Shown: positions 5,619-35,947 of the stretch, in pieces | Numbering within the stretch: the first letter of the stretch is position 1 | How the letters are laid out: every line of letters begins with the position of its first letter | Source: Planctomycetota bacterium | Lineage (GTDB): Bacteria; Planctomycetota; J132 | DNA: 35,947 bases | Assembly (NCBI GenBank): GCA_003694635.1 | Contig: RFKQ01000045.1 | Coordinates: forward strand, 1-35,947 | Direction: 5' to 3' | Translations under genes and position numbers: made by a program | The notes under the pieces: model-generated | Databases searched by the model: none | What the model was told of the DNA's origin: nothing | The model's input: the letters and a program-made list of their open reading frames with translations, nothing else

Positions 5619-8600
5619 TTACCTCACAAGCTCAATAGAATACGTAAACTTCGTCTTCTTCTTATCCTCCCGTACAATCTCTATCGTCTCCCTACGCGGA
5701 AAAACCCAATTGAACTTGCTCTTGCTCCAATAGGAAATAAAATCCGGCTTCGTGGTCCGGTATTTCCCCAAAATATCATCCCCTCCCCGTGGCCACCCGT
5801 CTTGATCGCAAACCCAAACCTCAATCACATCCCCATATTTCCACTGAAACCGAATGCTGTGGTTCCACTTGGGATACCAACTATCTGTGATAACAGGGGT
5901 GCGCCCCACTTCCTTTCCATTGATCTTAAAAATAATGTAGCCGTCCGGTTTTTCGTTCTGAATATCCGGTAGATCCCCCTCATGAAAAGTGATAATGTAG
6001 GTTTTGGGAGTAAGGATGCGCTTGTAGAAATTTACATCGATACGCAACTCCGTAGTTCGCTTTCCCTGAGGGAACAATTTTAAATATCGCTGCGCCAGTT
6101 GAAAGCACTTGGGGATATCGTTCTGATCCAAGTGCAGACGATAAAACCAGTAGAGAATTTCCGACTGATAGAGGCGAATTCGCTGCTTTTGCTGCAAAAG
6201 CCGCTTTTCCAAAGAAGGATCAGGGCTTTTTTTTAGCCAAAAAGAAATATACTTATCCACCCTCTCTTGCAAAGATTGAGCCCTCGAAAGCCTGATTTGA
6301 AACTGGGCCACCTGGACCACACTGGAGATGGTTTTCATAAACTTTTGAGAGTCTTCCTCAAAATCTTTCAGTGCCCTGAATAACTCTCTCCGCTCTTTTT
6401 GCTTGGCCGAGCTATAAAAATCCTGAACTCTTTTAAAAATTTCTGGATAAGATCCTCCGGATAGAGAAGAAAATTTCTTCTCCAAACGTCCCAACTTCTG
6501 GTACAAATCCAAATGGGGATTTTGCACAAGCTCCTCCAACTCCAATAAGCGATCCAACCGCTGCTTCTGCTCTTTCGCCTTTTCTACCAACGGAGATTTG
6601 GGATTGGAGGTAATAAACGACAAAAGTGCTTTTTGATAACCCTTAAGCTTGGCCAAATCCCTTCCCTCATAAACCGGCAATGAACGAAAAAGCCGCTCTT
6701 GCAACCGCTGAATCTGGGAAGAAGCCTTCTCTTCAAACGGTTTTAAATTCGAAAATGTAGAATCCACCGCCATCAGCTGCCGAATCTGATGGCGCAAATC
6801 CTCTAACATATCAATACTAGACTGAATTTTCAACACACTCTTGGCCTGCTTTTCAAGAGCTTGGAGAAAGTTGGAAAAAAACGTCTGAAAAATAGGATAA
6901 ATCCTAGAAAAAAACTCTGGCCTCGCCCTCAAAATCTGCCAAAGCTCCCGCTGAATTTGGCGCAACTTGACCACATTTCCTTTCGCCTGAGCTAGGCTAT
7001 GCTTAAGCAAAGTAAGAGACTTTTGAACATTTTTCTCCTGAATGCGCTGCTCCAAACTTAACCGGACAGAACGAATCAAAGAAAGCAAGGACGCCTTCTC
7101 CAACGACTGAGAATAGGAATTCTCCACCGCCACCAATTGGTTATAAAACTGCTGAGAAGCGGTGTTGGCCTCTAAACGACGTAAAAATTTTTGCACCTTT
7201 AATCGAAGTTTGTATTTTAAATCCCCATCTGCATAAGCAATGTACAACGCCAACGGCTCCATCGATTTGGCCAAATCCTCCAAGCTCTGAAACTTAGCAA
7301 ATCGTTGCAAAAACTCCTGAAGTATGCCATTGGCCAAATATACAATTTTTTTCTGAACATAGGCAACATGAGCCGAACAGCGCTTCTTGCCGCTAAGATA
7401 GGATTTGTAAAGCTGGAAAATCCTCCGCTTATCCTTTTCTCTCTTTGCAAGAAACTCGATCCGTCTCAAATCCTCCTGACAAATCTTTAACTCTATCTCC
7501 AAAATGGCTTTGGCAACCTCTGAAGAATAGGGGCAGTTCTTGTGCTGAAGCTTGTGCGCCTTCCACCTCCTCAATACCTCCAACATACCATTCGGAGACG
7601 AGGTTTTGGAAAAAAGGCGAATCCTCCAATACTCCTTATCCTGAAGCCTGCGCCTCCAATCATGGAGCTTTCTTTGCAACCGATCAGCATAGATAAAATC
7701 ACCAAAATACTTCCCTATCTTCTTAAAATTGCGATATACCTCCAAATAACGCTCTGGATACTGCTGGAATTTCTTCTCCAACTCCAATGCCTGTTGAAAC
7801 ACAATCTTTTGCGCCTGAATTTTTAGATCCTCTAACCTCTGGATGAGCGATTTGGAGAGGAAAGAATAAGTTAGATAACTCTGCGCCCTTTGGTAAACAA
7901 GAAAAGGATTTTCCCGAATGTTTTCTTTTGACCAATCCAAAAAATTTTGGATCTCCCGCTGCCGCCCCCTCTCCGCCTTCGCATAAATCCCCATCACAAA
8001 AGAATGAAGCGGAAAATAAACCGAAAACCGCTCCGCACTCCGATAACAACGCTGAGCAAACTCACCCCCCACGTTTCTCTCCAGCATCTTCAACAACCGC
8101 CTCCCTTCCCATACCCCCCAAAGAAGATACAAAAAACAAATCCCAAGAAAAAACAACCCAACCCATTTCATCCGCTTCCGAGCACGCAAAACCGCCTGCT
8201 GCTGCAACTTCTCAAACAGAAAAAAAAGCGGCTCCTCCACCTTGTACGGAGCAATGGTTGCCACCAAACGCCAACGCTGACCCTCCGACTCCTCCCGCTG
8301 AGCGTTCCCATTGCCTACAGCAGAAACCGCAAAAATCGAACCGTAATCCTTGACGTGATGCTGGAGATACTTGTGAATGCGCCCTAGACGATCCTGGACA
8401 AAATCCTCCAACTTCTCCCAAATCTGAGGATTGGAATCCGCCTTGGTCACAGCCACCGCTACCGGCGGCGGCAAAACACGAGCGCCCGAGGCCGCCCTCT
8501 CAATCGCCCGCTCAAAAAGCGCCAAATCATCCTGATAACGCTTCAAATCCGAGGAATTTAAATCATCCGCCGCCGCCAATAATAAATACGCATCCGCCTG

Positions 8601-8945
8601 AAGAAAATACGCCTCAATCTCCTTTGTGCGCTCGTTTTGCACGTGCGAATCCAACCACTCCCTTAAGTCAGATCCCCGAAAATCTTTGGTATAAACCGAA
8701 AAACTCTTCCCCTCCTTCTCATGAAAAAGCTCAAAAAATAACGGCTTACTCTCCAACGTCGCCGGAGGAAATTCCTTCTGCTCTAGACGAAGTATATTCT
8801 CCCGATAAAAACGACTGGTGTTTAAATCCGGACGAAGTACCCACTCAGAATGATGATAAAAATAATGCATCAAAGCCGTCAAATACGTGGTCTTCCCACT
8901 CCCACTTGGACCCACAATGGCTATGGAAAACCGCTTTTTCCACAT
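5619..8945 (-). CDS. P-loop GTPase-like protein with TM helix, long helical region and C-terminal C2-like domain
   Basis: 1108 aa; Walker A GPSGSGKTTYL, DFRG switch II-like motif, TKAD motif; hydrophobic KWVGLFFLGICFLYLLWGVW; C-terminal YIITFHEGDLPD...DGYIIFKINGKEVGRTPVITDSWYPKWNHSIRFQW...VIEVWVCDQDGWPRGGDDILGKYR resembles a C2 domain. Confidence 0.8.
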   Translation of the reverse strand: MWKKRFSIAIVGPSGSGKTTYLTALMHYFYHHSEWVLRPDLNTSRFYRENILRLEQKEFPPATLESKPLFFELFHEKEGKSFSVYTKDFRGSDLREWLDSHVQNERTKEIEAYFLQADAYLLLAAADDLNSSDLKRYQDDLALFERAIERAASGARVLPPPVAVAVTKADSNPQIWEKLEDFVQDRLGRIHKYLQHHVKDYGSIFAVSAVGNGNAQREESEGQRWRLVATIAPYKVEEPLFFLFEKLQQQAVLRARKRMKWVGLFFLGICFLYLLWGVWEGRRLLKMLERNVGGEFAQRCYRSAERFSVYFPLHSFVMGIYAKAERGRQREIQNFLDWSKENIRENPFLVYQRAQSYLTYSFLSKSLIQRLEDLKIQAQKIVFQQALELEKKFQQYPERYLEVYRNFKKIGKYFGDFIYADRLQRKLHDWRRRLQDKEYWRIRLFSKTSSPNGMLEVLRRWKAHKLQHKNCPYSSEVAKAILEIELKICQEDLRRIEFLAKREKDKRRIFQLYKSYLSGKKRCSAHVAYVQKKIVYLANGILQEFLQRFAKFQSLEDLAKSMEPLALYIAYADGDLKYKLRLKVQKFLRRLEANTASQQFYNQLVAVENSYSQSLEKASLLSLIRSVRLSLEQRIQEKNVQKSLTLLKHSLAQAKGNVVKLRQIQRELWQILRARPEFFSRIYPIFQTFFSNFLQALEKQAKSVLKIQSSIDMLEDLRHQIRQLMAVDSTFSNLKPFEEKASSQIQRLQERLFRSLPVYEGRDLAKLKGYQKALLSFITSNPKSPLVEKAKEQKQRLDRLLELEELVQNPHLDLYQKLGRLEKKFSSLSGGSYPEIFKRVQDFYSSAKQKERRELFRALKDFEEDSQKFMKTISSVVQVAQFQIRLSRAQSLQERVDKYISFWLKKSPDPSLEKRLLQQKQRIRLYQSEILYWFYRLHLDQNDIPKCFQLAQRYLKLFPQGKRTTELRIDVNFYKRILTPKTYIITFHEGDLPDIQNEKPDGYIIFKINGKEVGRTPVITDSWYPKWNHSIRFQWKYGDVIEVWVCDQDGWPRGGDDILGKYRTTKPDFISYWSKSKFNWVFPRRETIEIVREDKKKTKFTYSIELVR

Positions 8946-24467: not shown

Positions 24468-27239
24468 ATGAAAAAAAACCTCTACTCGTTTCTAGCTGAA
24501 TTCGCCATCCGCTACAAAAAACAAATCCTAATCACCACCCTCCTACTCTCCCTCCTACCCCTGAGCCTACTCCCCTCCCTAGAGCTTCGCACCGACTACG
24601 CGGAGCTCATTCGCCAAGAAGCACCCTACCAAAAAAAATTTAACCAATACCTCAAGAGCTTCGGAGCCTCAGAAGCTCTCTTTGTTATCATCCGCTCCCC
24701 CTACGCCCGAGAGATAGCCCAAACCGCCAATGACCTCCTACTCCAACTCAAAGATAAAAACAATCGCCCCCTTGTGCGCCGAGTGCTCTTCAAAATAAAT
24801 AAAAAATTTATGTACAAATACGGAATACTCTTCGCCAACCAAAAAGAATTCCAAGAAAGCATAGAAAACGCCACCTTCCTTGCCTACCTCCAAACAGCCA
24901 CCAATCTAGCCGAGTTTCTCTCCTCCATCACCCTTGCCATGGATGAGGCTAGCCGCCACCTTAACCTAAACTCCTCACCCTCCGACCTCATCTTCATCGA
25001 ACAGCTCCTTCAAGGCATACAAAACGCCTTAGTAAAGAAAAAAGTAGACCTCCCCCCTATCCTAAAACGCCATCAAAAATCCGTCTTCAAAGAAATCGAC
25101 CCCGACGGCTACTTCGTCCTCCCCAACCATCAACTTATGATCCTCATGCAGGTGTTCCCAGAAACCACAAGCGACGATTACCAAAAACTAAAAATCTTTC
25201 TCAATGGCGTAAAAAAATGCTTCCAACAAGCCGCCCAAAACTATCCTAATACCAAAATCTTCTACACCGGCAGCCCCCAGCTCACCGTGGATGAAATGGA
25301 AGACTCCTCCCGCGATATCCAACGTCTCACCCTCTTCTCCATCCTAGGCGTAGGCCTAATCTTCACCCTTTTCTTCGGCCGCTTCATCTGGCCTATCCTC
25401 TCCATCCTAGTGCTAGGAATCGCCATCCTCTGGACCTTCGGCTTGGCCGTCATCCTCTTCGGATATCTCAACATTGTCTCCGTCGTCTTTGCCGCCGTTC
25501 TCATCGGATTAGGAATAGACTTCGGCATCCATATCATCGAAAGATACTCCGAATCCATCTGCAGCAGCGCAGAAATCACCCCCCACAAAGCCGCCAAAGA
25601 AGCCGTTGTCAAAACAGGCATCGCCATCACCACAAGCGCACTCACCACCTCCGCAGCCTTTTTTATAAGCGCCTTCTCCGGATTTAAAGGCTCCTTCCAA
25701 CTGGGAATCCTTGGCGGATTGGGAATCTTAATCTGCCTCGCTTTCATGGTCACTCTCCTCCCCGGAATACTGGTCTGGATCGACCAAAAACGCCCCCTAC
25801 CGAAAGTCCACCCAGAATGCAAAACCTCCCGCATCATCCACCTCGTTCTACGCCTACTGAAATACCCAAAAACCGTAATCGCCCTCACCATGCTCGCCGT
25901 CTTCCTCTCCAGCTTCAGCGTCTTTTCCACCCAATTTGATACCAACCTCCTCAACCTTCAAAGAAAAAACTCCCAAGCCAAACTCCTCGAAGAAACCCTT
26001 ATCGAGGACTACGGTATCTCCGCTAGATTCGCTATCCTCCTAAAATCTTACCCCTCCCTAACCCAAAAAGAACACAACCTCAAAGCCAAAGAAGCCCTGG
26101 AACAAATCCGAACCCTCGTGGAAAAACTCAAATCCCTCCCCAGCGTCAACCCCTCCAAAGTGGAAGCCATCACCAATCTCCTCCCTCCCGAAAAAGTACA
26201 GGAAAAACGCCTCCAAATTCTCCTCCACTCCCCAAAACTACAACGATTCCGCCAGCTCTACCCCACCCTCCAATCCCAACCACCAAAACCTATCTCCCCC
26301 CAACCTCCTAGCCGAAAAAATCTAATCCAAGCCCTGGAAAAACTCCAAGAAAAAATCGAAGACCTCCAAGAAAAAACCTTCGGAAAAGAAGAAAACTGGA
26401 CCGTCTTCTTCGAAAAAATTATTCAAAAAATCGACAACCTCCTCCAACTTCTCTCGAAAACAAACTATGAAAAAAAACACCTCCTCCAATATCAACACCT
26501 AATCCTACACAATTTCCGGGAAAATGCCAAAATCCTTCCCGCCCTCTATAAACCTCAAAAACTAACCCTTAAAGATATTCCCCCAGAACTCAAAACCTAC
26601 TTTATCTCCCCCAATGGACTATGCGCCATCTATGTCTACCCCAAAGAAAATATCCGTATCCAAAAAAATCTCGAAAACTTTATCCAAGAACTCCGCTCCG
26701 TCGACCCTCACATCACAGGCCCTTCCGTCCAAACCTATGAAGTGCTCAAAGAAATGAAAGAAGGATACCAAAAAGCCGGCCTAATCGCCGTCTGCGTCGT
26801 CTTTCTTATCCTTCTGCTAGAATTTCGCAACCTCTGGATCGCTTCCCTCGCCATCTCCCCCCTAATCTTCGGCTCCCTCCTCATGCTCGGATGTATGTAC
26901 CTCCTCAACGTCCACTTTAACCCCGCTAACCTCATGGCTCTCCCCCTCCTCTTCGGCGTCGGCATCGATAACTCCATCCATATCCTACATCGATTCTATC
27001 GAGAAAAAGAATATAACCTGCCCACCATTCTCCACTTCACCGGCAAAGCTATCCTCATCACCTCCCTCACCACCATCGTCGGCTTTGGTAGCTTCCTCCT
27101 CGCCAGCCACCAAGGCCTCAAAAGTCTCGGGATCATCATGAGTATCGGTATTCTCTGCTGCCTATTCACCAGTCTTGTGCTCCTCCCATGTATGCTAAAA
27201 CTCCTTTCTAAACAAGGTAAAACCCATGACGACCCCTAA
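24468..27239 (+). CDS. RND/MMPL superfamily exporter (HAE3-like)
   Basis: 923 aa, two homologous halves: GLGIDFGIHIIERYSE and GVGIDNSIHILHRFYRE, TALTTSAAFF / TSLTTIVGFGSF. Confidence 0.9.
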   Translation: MKKNLYSFLAEFAIRYKKQILITTLLLSLLPLSLLPSLELRTDYAELIRQEAPYQKKFNQYLKSFGASEALFVIIRSPYAREIAQTANDLLLQLKDKNNRPLVRRVLFKINKKFMYKYGILFANQKEFQESIENATFLAYLQTATNLAEFLSSITLAMDEASRHLNLNSSPSDLIFIEQLLQGIQNALVKKKVDLPPILKRHQKSVFKEIDPDGYFVLPNHQLMILMQVFPETTSDDYQKLKIFLNGVKKCFQQAAQNYPNTKIFYTGSPQLTVDEMEDSSRDIQRLTLFSILGVGLIFTLFFGRFIWPILSILVLGIAILWTFGLAVILFGYLNIVSVVFAAVLIGLGIDFGIHIIERYSESICSSAEITPHKAAKEAVVKTGIAITTSALTTSAAFFISAFSGFKGSFQLGILGGLGILICLAFMVTLLPGILVWIDQKRPLPKVHPECKTSRIIHLVLRLLKYPKTVIALTMLAVFLSSFSVFSTQFDTNLLNLQRKNSQAKLLEETLIEDYGISARFAILLKSYPSLTQKEHNLKAKEALEQIRTLVEKLKSLPSVNPSKVEAITNLLPPEKVQEKRLQILLHSPKLQRFRQLYPTLQSQPPKPISPQPPSRKNLIQALEKLQEKIEDLQEKTFGKEENWTVFFEKIIQKIDNLLQLLSKTNYEKKHLLQYQHLILHNFRENAKILPALYKPQKLTLKDIPPELKTYFISPNGLCAIYVYPKENIRIQKNLENFIQELRSVDPHITGPSVQTYEVLKEMKEGYQKAGLIAVCVVFLILLLEFRNLWIASLAISPLIFGSLLMLGCMYLLNVHFNPANLMALPLLFGVGIDNSIHILHRFYREKEYNLPTILHFTGKAILITSLTTIVGFGSFLLASHQGLKSLGIIMSIGILCCLFTSLVLLPCMLKLLSKQGKTHDDP

Positions 27240-28697: not shown

Positions 28698-30260
28698 CTA
28701 CAGTAAACTAATCTTGCCTAACCACCGATCTAAATGAGCTACCGCATTAAGCAACCTCTCCAAATCCCTATCGCAAATGGGACGATTGTGGGCCACTTTA
28801 TTGCGAACGCGATTGAGAACAGTAAGATAGACCTTAAATTGGTCCTGAGAACCAATGATCTTCTTAAAAATATTCCTCCAATTCTTTACGATAATATTCT
28901 CCAAATCCTTCAAAGTAGCATAGCAAATCAAAGGATCATCACAATCCTCCAGCGTATTGTCCTCCTCTTCCCGCCTCTTGCGCAAAACCAATACCTCTCC
29001 CAACTCCCTCTCCGTCCTGCCCCTCCAACGCTCCGGCTCCGTATACACCCCCGCCAATCCCCGCCTCGCCCACTCCTCCCCATACTCGCTGTAGAGCTGG
29101 CTGACCACAAAATTGCGCAGACGATTCTCCACCTGATTGATAATCCCATAGCAAAATTGATTGGAAGCCAACATAAACTGGCCTACCAATAAATCCTTGG
29201 GCGCTACATCACAAACCTGAGAAAAGTGCCGCCTTAAAAGTGGATCTTTGCGCAAAAATAACTCGTAAATTCCATTGCGTAAGCATACCTTCCGATCCGG
29301 ACCTAACCGCAAAACTCCAAGCACAATCAACTCTTCCAAAAATCGCTGAGGCGCCATCAAACTAAGCTGGACCACCTCCCCCAATAAAATTCGCCCCAAA
29401 GCTCTTAAATCCTGCGGAGAAGCCTGAAGAATCCGCTGGCGAATCGCCTTTAAATGAAAGTCCCCCTCCTCAATAAACTCCTCCACAGCTCGATCAATCT
29501 GCCGAAACTGAACCTCACTTGGATGCTTGCTCCAAATGATGCGAAAAAGATTCTGACAAAAATAAGGATGACCACCGGTCTTCTCGTAAATGTAACGCGC
29601 ACCAATATCATGAATAGAACAACCATGTTTCTGAAAGTAAACCTTGGCAAACTCCACCGTCTGATCCTCACTAAAGTCCGATAAATGTATCTTGGAAGCC
29701 GCATTGGAAAACGGCGAAGTCCTCTCAGGATCTAAATTCTTCCATAAAATCGCGCCACCTAGCACAAAAAACATTTGCTTTAAATAAGGGTATTGATCGC
29801 GATAAGTATGAAGCTGCCGTATAAGAGAAACAAATTCTTTTTGCCTAGAGAAAGAAAGATTTTGAAAGTCGTCCAAAAAGAAAATAAAATTTTTTGAACA
29901 CCCCCTCAACACCTCCTCAAAAAGAAAAGATAACCCCTGACTCTCCAATCGCCTAAACTTCTCAAGGCGCCGATGAACATACTTCACCGGCCTAAGCTGC
30001 TGAGAAATCTCTAACGCCAACAACACAAACAAAGAATCATTCCAACTGGAAACATTGATCAACAAAGGAACGTACTGCTGGTAGTCCGGCAAGCTCTTTA
30101 AATACAAAATACACTGCCTAAAAAAAACACTTAACCCACTCTGCAACGGCGCTGAAACAATGACATACTCCAAACGCCTCAAACAAAGCTCCAGTTGAAG
30201 GATTTCCTTCTCGCGCCAAACTTCCCAAATTCCATCTCGCTCAATCACTCGACTCTTCAT
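28698..30260 (-). CDS. STAND/AAA-like ATPase with degenerate Walker A and C-terminal Swt1-type HEPN-like domain
   Basis: SAPLQSGLSVFF in P-loop position, Walker B FIFFLDDFQ, GGHPYFCQNL; C-term QVENRLRNFVVSQLYSEYGEEWARRG...VLNRVRNKVAHNRPI with RxxxxH. ATG 30260 (alternative GTG 30275). Confidence 0.72.
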   Translation of the reverse strand: MKSRVIERDGIWEVWREKEILQLELCLRRLEYVIVSAPLQSGLSVFFRQCILYLKSLPDYQQYVPLLINVSSWNDSLFVLLALEISQQLRPVKYVHRRLEKFRRLESQGLSFLFEEVLRGCSKNFIFFLDDFQNLSFSRQKEFVSLIRQLHTYRDQYPYLKQMFFVLGGAILWKNLDPERTSPFSNAASKIHLSDFSEDQTVEFAKVYFQKHGCSIHDIGARYIYEKTGGHPYFCQNLFRIIWSKHPSEVQFRQIDRAVEEFIEEGDFHLKAIRQRILQASPQDLRALGRILLGEVVQLSLMAPQRFLEELIVLGVLRLGPDRKVCLRNGIYELFLRKDPLLRRHFSQVCDVAPKDLLVGQFMLASNQFCYGIINQVENRLRNFVVSQLYSEYGEEWARRGLAGVYTEPERWRGRTERELGEVLVLRKRREEEDNTLEDCDDPLICYATLKDLENIIVKNWRNIFKKIIGSQDQFKVYLTVLNRVRNKVAHNRPICDRDLERLLNAVAHLDRWLGKISLL

Positions 30261-30279
30261 CAAAACGCCTCTCACTCTC

Positions 30280-33042
30280 CTAACCAGTGCACCGCTTCCT
30301 CATAACTTCTCCATAGTAAGGATTGCTCAAACGATAACGCCTTCCCATCTTTTTCAAAATTCCTAAAAAAAACAACTCCTCTAACCCCTTTTCCACCTGC
30401 AGCAAGGGAAGGTGGATAGAAATATCTTGGGATGTAAATTTTTCTTTGGAAAGAGATAGAATCGCCTGAAGAAGACACTTTTTCCCCTCGTCCAATCCCC
30501 CCTCATACAGACAAATCAACGCCTCGTGAAAATCTTCCAAGTGGCTTACTTGCTCAATATCCTCCTCCAAAACCACCCTTCTACCTCCCCCTTTAAGACG
30601 CCTTTGAATAAGAGCTATCAGCTTCTCTAAAAGAGCTGGATTCCTACCCGTATACTCCAACAACAGCTCCAGAAGACTCTTATCTTCCAACTCCAAGCCC
30701 CTCTGTTTGATGAAATGAAAAGCCAACACCTTCGCCTCCCTCTCATCTAACGGAGTTAAATGAAGAATCTCCATATCCAAAAGAGGCAAAAGCCCAATCC
30801 CCCCCGTAAGAATAACGCGAAACCCTTCACTAAGCTCCGCAGACAGCTGCTCAAAAGCCTCCAAAACTCTCTCCGCCTGCGACCGCTTCCTCAGAAATAC
30901 CCCCTCCACATCGTCCATAAGCACCAACACCCGCCGGCCATGGCAAAAACTCTCGGCAACAAACTCCTTTAAAACCTCCAACCCCTCCTCCAACGTAGAA
31001 CTCTTGATATGAAAATTCGTCAAAATTCCCTGAAGAAGGTCCTCAAGACCCCTCATCGCCTTGGCCTGGACATAAGCCATTTTGTAGCTTAAATCCATAC
31101 CATAGATCTCTTTTAGCGTCGCTAACATAGAGCTCTTACCCACCCCATTTCCCCCTAAAATCGCATAATTCTGCCCAGAATCCTTGAGAATTTGCTCAAT
31201 CTCCCTCCGCCTAAGAATAAATATCTCCGACTCCTCCTCCGCAACAACATCGTTCCTCTTCCTCTTCAAAAGCTTCTGAGCTTCCTCCACCAACTGCAAA
31301 AGAATATCCGCCAAATTCTCCCTCTCCCTCAAAATACGCGGATAAATGGAGTTGGTAAATCTATAATACTTCTCCTCTTTTTTTAATACACTCGTCATCG
31401 TCAGCTTCCTCAATTCACTTCTAAGCTGAAACGGCTCCATCTCTAGCTCCAATGACTTCAAAGATTCCATCAACTGGAGCTCCGTAAACGAATCCCAGTC
31501 TTCAAAAATAATATGACATACCAACAGCTTGGGCAAAATATCCCCCTGCTCCTCTCCCTCCCGAAAGTTATCCAAGTGATTCCCTACCACCAAATCCCGA
31601 TACGCCTCACTGCGATACACATCCTCCACATCCTCCTCCTGAATATAACGCCGATTCTCCGAAGCAATCTTCTCGATCAAACACTTGCAATAGTGCTGGA
31701 CAAAACAAGGATGCCCCGCTGTATACTCATAGATTTTATCCACTATTTTCTTTTTTGCCAGAAAGCGAATCCCCAAACGATGGCACATAGGCTCTTCAAT
31801 AAGACGTCGACAGTCTTTCTTGCTCAACTCCTTAAGCTCAAAAGGCTCCGCAAAATTCCGAAAGGGAGCATAAAGGCGGTAAAATTCAGAATAAAGTTTC
31901 TTAAAACCCGCAAAAAAGAAACGACATCTACTCTTGAAATCATTGTGGATATTGCGAAGAGACACAAATATCTTACTCGCAGACCTCCGATCAATATCCA
32001 CCAAATCGTCCACCTCATCGATAAAAACCGTCACCCTATCCGGCCTAGAACGCAAATAGTCGCGCAACCTCTGCTCAAAATCCTCCACCGTCTCCACCTC
32101 AGCTGAGTCCACCCCCAGCTGCTTTAAAATCTCCCTTCCTAAAAATAAGTTGTTCTTTACCCCCTCGCAAGTGATAAACACCGTCTTCTGCCCCGATTCC
32201 TCATTCAAAATTTCCTGAATCTTCTTTAAAAGCGAAGTTTTCCCCATCTGACGTCCGCCATAAATCGCATAGCTGATAGCCTGATCATTCATCATCAAAT
32301 CAATGGCCTTCTTTCTACCAAAAAACATCAAGCTAGACGTGCTCCCATGAGTGCGATAAGGCTGTATGTCAAGCAAATCCAACTGCTCTGTGATCGCCTG
32401 GTTAAACGCAATCGGGGTCTTGCTCGCTAACAAAATGTTTTTAAGATTTCTAAGGTGCAAAACCACAAAACGATAACGACTCTCCTTGGTAAGATGAATA
32501 AAATCCTCCGTATTGTACATTGTCAAAATAAACGCCACTTTCCGAAAATACTCCTGAGGACCACTCTCTATCAGATTGACAAACTGCTGAAGCTCCTGAG
32601 AGGGAGCGTCACCTTTGGAGTAAAAGAAAAATAAATTCCCTTTCAAACACTCCAAAAACGGATTGATCAACTGGATATACGCCACCTCCTCTTTCATCAC
32701 CCGATTTATCCGAAAATCCCCAAACTCCCCCAACGCCCCCAAAAAACCAGAAAGGCTTCCCTCTTTTTGCTTTTTTCCTTGCGCTGTATGAAGTAAACTT
32801 TTATAATATTTAATAAGCTGAAGAATCTTCGACCAACGGTTGGCGTTGATCTCCAAAACCTGAAAAAATGTCTTAGTATTGGACCTTTTTTCAAAAACCC
32901 GATACACCTTTTCTAAAGTGATCAAGTTCAATTGCTCCCGAATAAACTCCCTGGAAACGCTTCTCTTCTTCCCTACCGCAGTGCAACGTATCATCTCTAC
33001 CAATCTACGCACCTCTTCGTCAGAAACATTCTCAAATTTCAT
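30280..33042 (-). CDS. Tandem STAND/AAA-type ATPase (two P-loop modules)
   Basis: 920 aa; PYRTHGSTSSLMFFGRKKAI...YGGRQMGKTSLLKKI, VTVFIDEVDDL; second module LGGNGVGKSSMLATL, RVLVLMDDVEGVF; winged-helix-like segments after each. Confidence 0.8.
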   Translation of the reverse strand: MKFENVSDEEVRRLVEMIRCTAVGKKRSVSREFIREQLNLITLEKVYRVFEKRSNTKTFFQVLEINANRWSKILQLIKYYKSLLHTAQGKKQKEGSLSGFLGALGEFGDFRINRVMKEEVAYIQLINPFLECLKGNLFFFYSKGDAPSQELQQFVNLIESGPQEYFRKVAFILTMYNTEDFIHLTKESRYRFVVLHLRNLKNILLASKTPIAFNQAITEQLDLLDIQPYRTHGSTSSLMFFGRKKAIDLMMNDQAISYAIYGGRQMGKTSLLKKIQEILNEESGQKTVFITCEGVKNNLFLGREILKQLGVDSAEVETVEDFEQRLRDYLRSRPDRVTVFIDEVDDLVDIDRRSASKIFVSLRNIHNDFKSRCRFFFAGFKKLYSEFYRLYAPFRNFAEPFELKELSKKDCRRLIEEPMCHRLGIRFLAKKKIVDKIYEYTAGHPCFVQHYCKCLIEKIASENRRYIQEEDVEDVYRSEAYRDLVVGNHLDNFREGEEQGDILPKLLVCHIIFEDWDSFTELQLMESLKSLELEMEPFQLRSELRKLTMTSVLKKEEKYYRFTNSIYPRILRERENLADILLQLVEEAQKLLKRKRNDVVAEEESEIFILRRREIEQILKDSGQNYAILGGNGVGKSSMLATLKEIYGMDLSYKMAYVQAKAMRGLEDLLQGILTNFHIKSSTLEEGLEVLKEFVAESFCHGRRVLVLMDDVEGVFLRKRSQAERVLEAFEQLSAELSEGFRVILTGGIGLLPLLDMEILHLTPLDEREAKVLAFHFIKQRGLELEDKSLLELLLEYTGRNPALLEKLIALIQRRLKGGGRRVVLEEDIEQVSHLEDFHEALICLYEGGLDEGKKCLLQAILSLSKEKFTSQDISIHLPLLQVEKGLEELFFLGILKKMGRRYRLSNPYYGEVMRKRCTG

Positions 33043-33188: not shown

Positions 33189-34568
33189 ATGTGGAGAGAA
33201 ACGCATGTCTACCTAAGACGTAAAAAAATCTGGTTTTCCCTTCTCTTCTTTGCTTTTATTTTTAATCCCAAACCCAGCCAAGCCGCTCCCAATCCTCTTC
33301 AGAAAGACATCGATAACGCCATCAAAAAAGGCGTCAAGTACCTCCTCTCTCGCCAAATACCACAGGGACACTGGGATGTGGATACCTTCTCCGGCTACCC
33401 CCTAGGTAGCACCGCCCTGATCACACTTACCCTACTAAAATGCGGAGTCTCCCCCAACCATATCGCCATTCGACGCGCCTTCAACTATATGAACCAACTT
33501 CCTTTCCAAAGAACCTACAGCGTGGCCCTCTACATTATGGCGCTAGAAGCTAGATATACCCCGCCGAAAAAAATTTTAAAAAAATACGCCAAACGCCATA
33601 TCCGCCGAACAACCGTCCTCCGCCGCCGCTTTCGCAAATACGCCAATCGACAAGATAGAGCTCGTCTTTTAGACGCCGTCAATTGGCTAATCAATAATCG
33701 CAACCCAGACGGAGTCTGGAGCTATGCAAAGTCCACCTACTATGACCACTCTAATACCCAGTACGCCCTGCTAGGCCTAGCCGCCGCAGAACGACTAGGG
33801 GTAAAAATTAAATCCGAAGTCTTCTTTAAAGTAGCCGAACACTTCCTCAAAGTACAAACGCCCGATGGAGAACAAGTCCAACCCTTCCCCGTGCCAGCAG
33901 CCGAAGAACCCATTAGCCATGTCCTGAGAAAAAAACTGGAAAGAAAATGGAAACACGTCCCTAGGCGTAGCCGAACCGTCAAACGAAAAGCCTACGCCTA
34001 CGGAACCTCAAATAAAGAACAAATCTATAAAGCGCGCGGCTGGGGATACCGTGCCATCACTCCCTCTTCCGATCAAAAACAAAGAAAAATCTCCCCATTC
34101 TTCCGAGCTTATGGAAGCATGACCGTCGCAGGCATCGCCTGCCTAGTCATCTGCAAAGCACACCTGGAAAAATGGGCCGCACGCACCTACAAATGGAAAA
34201 AACTTCGCCCCGAACTCAACCGAGCTATCCGCGATGGCTGCGCTTGGATAGCCAAAAATTTCAGCGTCCAACGAAACCCTGGAATAGGTGGCTGGAAATG
34301 GTACTACCTCTACGGACTAGAGCGCGCTGGCGTACTTAGCGGCATCCAATATTTCGGAAAATACGACTGGTATCTACTAGGCGCCAAAGAAATCCTAAAA
34401 GAGTTCCAAAACAATAAAGACCATATCAGCGGCCAAAAAGGTCACGGATCCTCCCCAGAAATCCGTACCTGCTACGCCCTCCTCTTCTTAAAACGCGCCA
34501 CCGTCCCCCTCCGCCAACAACCACCCACCCCCAAACGCGTGGTCACCGGCGCAGGATATAGACGCTGA
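33189..34568 (+). CDS. Secreted prenyltransferase/squalene-cyclase-like alpha-barrel repeat protein
   Basis: aggagga RBS; signal peptide-like FSLLFFAFIFNPKPSQAA; NAIKKGVKYLLSRQIPQGHWDVDTFSGYPLGSTALITLTLL, AVNWLINNRNPDGVWSYAKSTYYDHSNTQYALLGLAAAERLG. Confidence 0.75.
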   Translation: MWRETHVYLRRKKIWFSLLFFAFIFNPKPSQAAPNPLQKDIDNAIKKGVKYLLSRQIPQGHWDVDTFSGYPLGSTALITLTLLKCGVSPNHIAIRRAFNYMNQLPFQRTYSVALYIMALEARYTPPKKILKKYAKRHIRRTTVLRRRFRKYANRQDRARLLDAVNWLINNRNPDGVWSYAKSTYYDHSNTQYALLGLAAAERLGVKIKSEVFFKVAEHFLKVQTPDGEQVQPFPVPAAEEPISHVLRKKLERKWKHVPRRSRTVKRKAYAYGTSNKEQIYKARGWGYRAITPSSDQKQRKISPFFRAYGSMTVAGIACLVICKAHLEKWAARTYKWKKLRPELNRAIRDGCAWIAKNFSVQRNPGIGGWKWYYLYGLERAGVLSGIQYFGKYDWYLLGAKEILKEFQNNKDHISGQKGHGSSPEIRTCYALLFLKRATVPLRQQPPTPKRVVTGAGYRR

Positions 34569-34772: not shown

Positions 34773-35947
34773 CTACCCCTTGATCACAACCAAAGGCTTT
34801 ACCCTAGCCACAATCTTAGAAAGCCCCGCACGCTCCACCACATCCACCACCTCCGCCACATCCTTATACGCATGCGGCATCTCCTCCGCAATCGTACGCT
34901 TTCCTGTGGCTTTGACAGTAACCCCATACCCCTCTAAAACCTGAAACATATCCATATTCTGACACTTCTTGCGAGACTTCACCCGGCTTAAAATCCTCCC
35001 AGCCCCATGACAGGAACTACCAAAACTAGCTTCCATTGCTCCCGGCGCCCCCACAAGTACATACGAATAACGACCCATATCACCCGGAATTAAAACCGGC
35101 TGGCCAATTTCTCTATATTTGCGCGGAGTCTGAGGATGACCCGGCGGAAAAGCACGAGTGGCCCCCTTACGATGAACACATACCCGACGCTCCTTCCCAT
35201 CCACTTTATGCACCTCAAACTTCGCAATGTTATGACAAACATCATAAATTATCTCCATTCCCAACTCACTCCCCCGAATTTGAAACGTGTGCAAAAACGA
35301 CTTCTTCGCCAAATACATAATCACCTGCCGATTTGCCCACGCAAAATTGGCCGCGCAAGCCATCGCCGCTAAATAATCCTTCGCCTCAGGACTACTCAAA
35401 GGAGCACAAGCCAACTGTTTGTCCGGTAAAGAAATCCCATATTTCTTCACCGCCCTCTCCATCACCTCAATGTACTCCGAAGCTATCTGATGCCCATATC
35501 CCCTCGAACCACAATGAATGATCACCACAATCTGACCCTTCTCCAAACCAAGCACCCCGCCAATCGACGTATCATAAACCTCCTCCACCACATCCACCTC
35601 AAGAAAGTGATTTCCAGATCCAAGTGTCCCCACCTGCTGCATCCCCCGCTTCACCGCATAAGAACTTACCAACGAAGGATCCGCTCCCCCTAAACATCCT
35701 CCCTCCTCAATAAACTCCAAATCCTCCTCCCTACCATACCCCTCCTCCACCGCCCACCTTGCACCCCGCAAAGCCAACCTCTCCATCTCTCGCTCGCTAA
35801 GCTTGCGAATCCCCCCTCGCGCCGCCACCCCCGTAGGTACATCCCGAAAAAGCCGCCGAGCCAACTGCTCCCTCTTCCCCAAAACCTCCTCCTCCCGCAA
35901 ATGAGTGCGCAATAAACGCACCCCACAGTTGATGTCATAACCCACCC
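34773..35947 (-). CDS. rtcB: RNA-splicing ligase RtcB (5' end outside window)
   Basis: GYDINCGVRLLRT, GTLGSGNHFLEVD, IIHCGSRGYGHQ, HNIAKFE, HRKGATRAFPPGH, SSCHGAGR; frame stays open to the window edge. Confidence 0.95.
   Translation of the reverse strand, partial: VGYDINCGVRLLRTHLREEEVLGKREQLARRLFRDVPTGVAARGGIRKLSEREMERLALRGARWAVEEGYGREEDLEFIEEGGCLGGADPSLVSSYAVKRGMQQVGTLGSGNHFLEVDVVEEVYDTSIGGVLGLEKGQIVVIIHCGSRGYGHQIASEYIEVMERAVKKYGISLPDKQLACAPLSSPEAKDYLAAMACAANFAWANRQVIMYLAKKSFLHTFQIRGSELGMEIIYDVCHNIAKFEVHKVDGKERRVCVHRKGATRAFPPGHPQTPRKYREIGQPVLIPGDMGRYSYVLVGAPGAMEASFGSSCHGAGRILSRVKSRKKCQNMDMFQVLEGYGVTVKATGKRTIAEEMPHAYKDVAEVVDVVERAGLSKIVARVKPLVVIKG

Follow-up and report, generated by a model that had tools for sequence, protein, structure and literature searches.

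A conserved planctomycete gene pair coding for a tandem ATPase and a predicted pseudo-ATPase with an exchangeable HEPN or kinase domain

The minus strand of a 35,947-nucleotide stretch of planctomycete DNA (contig RFKQ01000045.1, positions 1 to 35,947; hereafter the window) carries two adjacent genes, A and B, which raise the question whether a large ATPase and a putative ribonuclease (RNase) form one functional unit and, if so, what this unit may do. The original prediction described a 920-amino-acid protein with two P-loop ATPase modules, encoded about 20 nucleotides from a gene for a 525-amino-acid protein composed of an ATPase-like module and a C-terminal HEPN domain with the motif RNKVAH, and assigned the role of sensor or regulator to the former and that of RNase effector to the latter. 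This observation was confirmed, as both open reading frames (ORFs) were retrieved as described, with both P-loops in A, a HEPN domain above the curated Pfam cut-off in B, and a gap of 20 nucleotides when translation of B starts at ATG 30260. The interpretation was partly supported. Indeed, genome comparison indicates a conserved pair of an active tandem ATPase (A) and a predicted pseudo-ATPase (B), the latter carrying an effector domain that differs among relatives.

A first line of evidence comes from the distribution of the pair, for which 392 planctomycete genomes were searched with A and B. In isolate OFTM357 (genome G070; contig JAJDCR010000055.1), belonging to a different family, orthologues of A (51% identical over the full length) and B (41%) occurred in the same order, with retention of the motif RNK[VL]AHNR, the degenerate P-loop of B, and the module layout. 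As OFTM357 shares both genes, their order, this motif, and the arrangement of modules, the pair in the window is not due to chance, and as the flanking genes differ between both loci (in the window, a gene related to squalene cyclase and T2SSG/HpnN genes; in OFTM357, genes of cytochrome and transposase-like type), A and B represent a conserved unit. The best matches to A (E ≤ 3e-34) were found in seven of the 392 genomes, B directly following A in all seven, either overlapping with it or close to it. The effector of B was a HEPN domain in two of these pairs and a Ser/Thr kinase in the five others, which stem from one family (G170, G055, G075, G109, and G140). The kinase-type A proteins are 780 amino acids long and 26-28% identical to A of the window in a stretch comprising the end of the alpha/beta domain plus ATPase 1. 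The kinase-type B proteins combine an N-terminal degenerate ATPase (SAPPRSGVTTF and similar) with a C-terminal kinase domain (Pfam, E 8e-53) of which the HRD and DFG motifs are intact, and a profile made of these five proteins matched B of the window with an E value of 2e-6 for the whole protein and of 1e-4 for the best stretch. Because a kinase replaces the HEPN domain in five planctomycetes, the conserved unit is, as read from the sequences, an active ATPase plus a degenerate ATPase with an exchangeable effector. The predicted division into a regulator and an effector fits this exchange.

The same exchange bears on the possibility of a toxin-antitoxin-like module, in which A would restrain the HEPN RNase toxin of B without sensing any invader, and loss or degradation of A would free the toxicity. 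This explanation is quite improbable. It would account for the tight coupling of an ATPase and a HEPN RNase in two genes, and there are descriptions or proposals of HEPN toxins that pair with ParA-like ATPases or MNT antitoxins (PMC3710099), but A, with its two ATPases and extra alpha/beta domain, is far bigger than known antitoxins, and the change from HEPN to kinase, with A and the pseudo-ATPase both retained, is a better fit for a switch with interchangeable outputs.

A profile of the B module, made from the seven B proteins and hence recovering these by construction, revealed, among the remaining genomes of the 392, no B that is separate from A; the next matches (6e-25 and weaker) represent another family. 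These weaker matches (G129, G268, G285, G319, G329, G080, and others) were rejected, their readable P-loops being intact (e.g., HAARQTGKTTL); in our own reading, several of them appear to end nuclease-like, resembling AAA-ATPase/DUF1703-type proteins. A probability of co-occurrence of A and B was discarded, because most B sequences had been sought beside A and had then entered the B profile. When GTDB contigs were scanned using only B, no relative was obtained; an alignment-based scan with A gave the OFTM357 locus only, and a scan of viral contigs with A gave no match. A look-alike operon was present in genome G036 (L024, 4171-7494 and 2259-4214, minus strand), encoding, in overlapping genes, a kinase-FHA-ATPase protein and an AAA_35-kinase protein; the P-loop of the second protein is intact, and this operon was kept apart as a possible cousin only.

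A second line of evidence concerns the N-terminal module of B, which is followed by a winged-helix-like segment and the C-terminal HEPN domain. This module, originally taken for an ATPase, is read as a pseudo-ATPase on the basis of its motifs, because the Walker A lysine is lost (SAPLQSGLS instead of GxxxxGK[ST]). Similarly, the P-loop reads SSSPQSGLT in OFTM357 and SAPP[RH][ST]GV[ST] or CAPPHSGVT in the kinase-type proteins. Hence, it is degenerate in all seven planctomycete B proteins, whereas the Walker B strand and R185 are retained; D135 and F137 are invariant among these proteins. R185 would lie where an arginine finger is usually located; an equivalent arginine occupies no fixed alignment column in A. 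An AlphaFold model of B, built from two sequences (mean predicted local distance difference test score, pLDDT, 57.5), gave weak Foldseek matches, with ORC/Cdc6-like proteins, RdrA (RADAR), and Avs STAND proteins among those listed.

Thirdly, the C-terminal part of B is almost certainly a Swt1-type HEPN domain, judging from its profile matches and alignments. The HEPN_Swt1 model (PF18731; curated cut-off of 27.5 bits) scored 51.7 bits in the window and 34.7 bits in OFTM357, and B of the window also matched the PADLOC candidate-defence profile PDC-M34B (2e-16). With plasmid-encoded Swt1-HEPN proteins of Paracoccus, Pseudosulfitobacter, and Sphingobium, the domain shares the block PLICYATLKDLENII...W..IF..I..SQ..F...L..L..VRNKVAHNRP, including the arginine and the histidine of the RxxxxH motif, which reads RNTIGH or RNPVAH in annotated Swt1-HEPN proteins. 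The active site of HEPN domains is an R-x4-H motif contributed by two subunits, and RNase activity of the HEPN domain of B is likely. The alternative that this domain is not catalytic, serving RNA binding or as a scaffold and leaving B an adaptor only, is very improbable: some Swt1-family HEPN domains are indeed inactive (PMC3710099), but both residues are kept in the window, in OFTM357, and in distant relatives.

Protein A consists of an N-terminal region, an alpha/beta domain, and two ATPases, each followed by a winged-helix-like segment. It matched Pfam AAA_22 (3e-20) and, more weakly, STAND/AAA models, including nSTAND1; the alpha/beta domain had no Pfam match. Both Walker A motifs are intact, and the motif GxRxxGK[TS] of ATPase 1 is common to all A proteins compared. 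The coordinates of all features are listed in Table 1.

Table 1. Features of genes A and B, in positions of the window
Feature	Position	Strand	Residues	Basis
Gene A	30280..33042	-	920 amino acids	ORF; Pfam AAA_22 3.1e-20 over two stretches; OFTM357 orthologue 51% identical, full-length
A alpha/beta domain before ATPase 1	32353..32715	-	~110-230	Aligned in HEPN-type, kinase-type, and giant plasmid A
A ATPase 1 Walker A, GGRQMGKTS, intact	32233..32259	-	262-270	Sequence
A ATPase 1 Walker B, VFIDEVDD	32005..32028	-	339-346	Sequence and alignment
A ATPase 2 Walker A, GGNGVGKSS, intact	31129..31155	-	630-638	GGNGFGKTS in OFTM357
Gene B	28698..30275	-	525 amino acids from GTG	ORF; Pfam AAA_35 5.5e-9 and HEPN_Swt1 1.3e-13; OFTM357 orthologue 41% identical
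B degenerate Walker A, SAPLQSGLS, lysine to leucine	30129..30155	-	41-49	
B Walker B-like strand, FFLDDF, kept	29865..29882	-	132-137	
B R185, directly before fifth strand	29721..29723	-	185	Invariant in seven of seven planctomycete B; position from alignment
B winged-helix-like segment	29226..29423	-	~285-350	Helix-helix-strand-strand in model, modest confidence
B Swt1-type HEPN	28716..29153	-	~375-520	Pfam HEPN_Swt1 1.3e-13; aligned with annotated Swt1-HEPN plasmid proteins
B RNKVAH, predicted catalytic R491-x4-H496	28788..28805	-	491-496	RNKLAH in OFTM357

This organization resembles that of nSTAND2, a predicted mobile two-gene counter-invader system (Kaur, Iyer, Burroughs, and Aravind, eLife 2021, PMC8195603, Fig. 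6C) that comprises two STAND NTPases, one of which has eroded NTP-binding motifs and a variable effector, most commonly GT4 or HEPN. For this system, a hetero-ring formed through arginine fingers has been suggested, its inactive STAND domains have been proposed to bind nucleic acids, and its NTPase family is placed near CR-ATPase, Dap3, and RNA12 (PMC8195603). In the literature searched, the name nSTAND2 was used for such a system in that paper only, and no experimental test of a predicted switch of this type was found. The likeness is threefold: adjacent genes on the same strand code for a STAND-type NTPase each (AAA_22/nSTAND1 in A, AAA_35 in B); one NTPase is intact (GGRQMGKTS and GGNGVGKSS in A) and the other eroded (SAPLQSGLS in B, and likewise in six relatives); and the eroded module is fused to a variable effector (HEPN in the window and OFTM357, a Ser/Thr kinase in five relatives). 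A kinase effector, as in the planctomycetes, is not named in the text of PMC8195603. Hence, the design of a two-gene switch had already been predicted, whereas a kinase in the place of the HEPN domain is new.

Taken as such, the pair probably constitutes an NTPase switch encoded by two genes and of the predicted nSTAND2 kind. In this mechanism, A, with its working ATPases, would be the switch and would probably carry the sensor, and B would dock into the A assembly by means of its degenerate ATPase, offering either an arginine finger or a surface that binds nucleic acids, and bringing in the effector, in this case a HEPN RNase. Once A is triggered and ATP-bound, A and B would assemble, the HEPN domains would dimerize, and the paired HEPN domains would cut RNA, which would halt the growth of either the cell or the invader. 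The sequences show the domain content, the intact and degenerate P-loops, the conserved linkage and RxxxxH motif, and the exchange of HEPN for a kinase; that A and B co-assemble, that ATP activates them, that RNA is cleaved, and that invaders are the target is inferred.

Distant relatives of A are encoded on plasmids of Alphaproteobacteria, Gammaproteobacteria, and Rhodothermota. They share the alpha/beta domain and, in most cases, have an ATPase with the motif GGRQLGK[TS], but are about 1900-3400 amino acids long, unlike the compact A of the window with its tandem ATPases. At seven of the 13 loci examined (Microvirga, Azospirillum, Bradyrhizobium, Agrobacterium, Salinibacter, Thiodictyon, and Methylocystis), the gene directly downstream codes for a protein with a HEPN-type R[NR]xxAH motif and an N-terminus devoid of a P-loop; elsewhere at these loci, over further frames and regions, 11 such motifs occurred in about 94,000 residues. 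Other plasmid A genes are followed by a gene with DrmE_C of DISARM (two loci), a helicase gene (one), or a gene for an 895-amino-acid protein of unknown type (one), the remaining loci having no clear partner gene. The DISARM DrmE C-terminal domains (1e-12 and 2e-11) occur after the giant A of Cupriavidus and Burkholderia plasmids (L067, 6226-8790; L078, 7046-9877). Four plasmid HEPN partners (L068, L072, L073, and L075) have an extra C-terminal AAA_33 domain, which is polynucleotide-kinase-like and possibly handles RNA ends. A giant A-like protein of Brasilonema (L081, 306-7175) has sigma-70 regions 1.2 to 4 fused ahead of the ATPase. Furthermore, some plasmid relatives of A adjoin recombinases and restriction- or defence-type genes.

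A role in defence is suggested by the family resemblance and by this setting of the plasmid relatives. Several points weigh against it or against the proposed switch. Firstly, the comparison with nSTAND2 covered the described architecture. Secondly, the predicted structures are weak: the AlphaFold model of A (pLDDT 40) is too poor for a structure search and does not confirm the N-terminal fold, and that of B (mean pLDDT about 57) displays successive helices at residues 366-519 with low confidence and does not confirm a four-helix fold. Thirdly, plasmid and planctomycete B proteins align in their HEPN parts only, weakly (E 3e-4, probability 40%), and a profile comparison of their N-terminal modules was not significant (probability 4%), so that homology of the pseudo-ATPases is not shown. 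Lastly, the enrichment near defence genes that had been proposed as a check was not seen, as the pair has no adjoining defence genes in either the window or OFTM357; its neighbours at these loci are housekeeping, hopanoid-transport, or cytochrome genes. This chromosomal position amid housekeeping genes, together with the occurrence of the kinase form in five genomes of one family, could point to an endogenous signalling or stress module that responds to an internal cue and acts on host RNA, or on host proteins in the kinase form, without any role in conflict. Such a module is nevertheless unlikely, given the patchy distribution of the pair (seven of the 392 genomes), the presence of HEPN-type pairs in two distinct families, and the recombinases and restriction- or defence-type genes beside plasmid-borne relatives.

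The probable switch shares traits with other known systems. Swt1/Abi2-type HEPN domains fused to STAND ATPases mostly keep the RxxxxH motif (Anantharaman et al. 2013, PMC3710099) and represent the same HEPN family in an ATPase fusion; however, the fusions given there combine STAND, TPR, and S1 in one protein (e.g., Npun_F6454), whereas in the window the fused ATPase is degenerate and the live ATPases reside in the partner protein. DUF499 or Hma-type BREX-related systems possess a HEPN domain fused to an ORC/Cdc6-STAND-type ATPase as well (PMC12839542), but there the HEPN domain is N-terminal and a methyltransferase and a helicase are needed, neither of which occurs at the pair in the window. 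Likeness to RdrA (RADAR) and Avs consists of the weak Foldseek matches of the low-confidence B model, and the pair lacks a deaminase and an Avs-type repeat region.

Regarding gene starts, a Shine-Dalgarno-like sequence (AAGGGAGA) precedes the ATG of gene A. For gene B, the GTG start at 30275 leaves a gap of only four nucleotides to A, whereas ATG 30260, giving a product of about 520 amino acids, has GAGAGG seven nucleotides upstream; the latter is the likely true start because of its better ribosome-binding site. The window, which is contig 106 of a genome 66.8% complete and without close relatives in the sample, is a housekeeping region of ordinary composition. It further contains genes for an HpnN-like hopanoid/sterol RND transporter (24468-27239, plus strand; 1e-129), a squalene-cyclase-related protein (33189-34568), and, 1.7 kb from the pair, the RNA ligase RtcB (34773-35945, minus strand). 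RtcB is able to rejoin the type of ends left by HEPN RNases; no RtcB gene was recognized near the pair in OFTM357. Finally, a 1108-amino-acid protein (5619-8945, minus strand) starts with a DO-GTPase1/2 domain (1e-8) and has a C2 domain close to its C-terminus; DO-GTPases belong to a different conflict system, likewise predicted (PMC7159879; Kaur et al. 2020).

As a tentative extension, the planctomycete pairs may form a switch lineage of their own, with sequences that set it apart from the nSTAND2 family as published, in which the degenerate ATPase subunit serves as a general effector adaptor, bearing a HEPN RNase in two lineages and an active Ser/Thr kinase in another. If true, one type of sensor assembly would be able to set off the cleavage of RNA or the phosphorylation of proteins, depending on the effector. 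The planctomycete set offers compact and clearly paired examples, with HEPN and kinase versions on one scaffold, and the central claim of a degenerate ATPase acting as an effector adaptor in a heteromeric assembly is directly testable through exchange of the effector domains.

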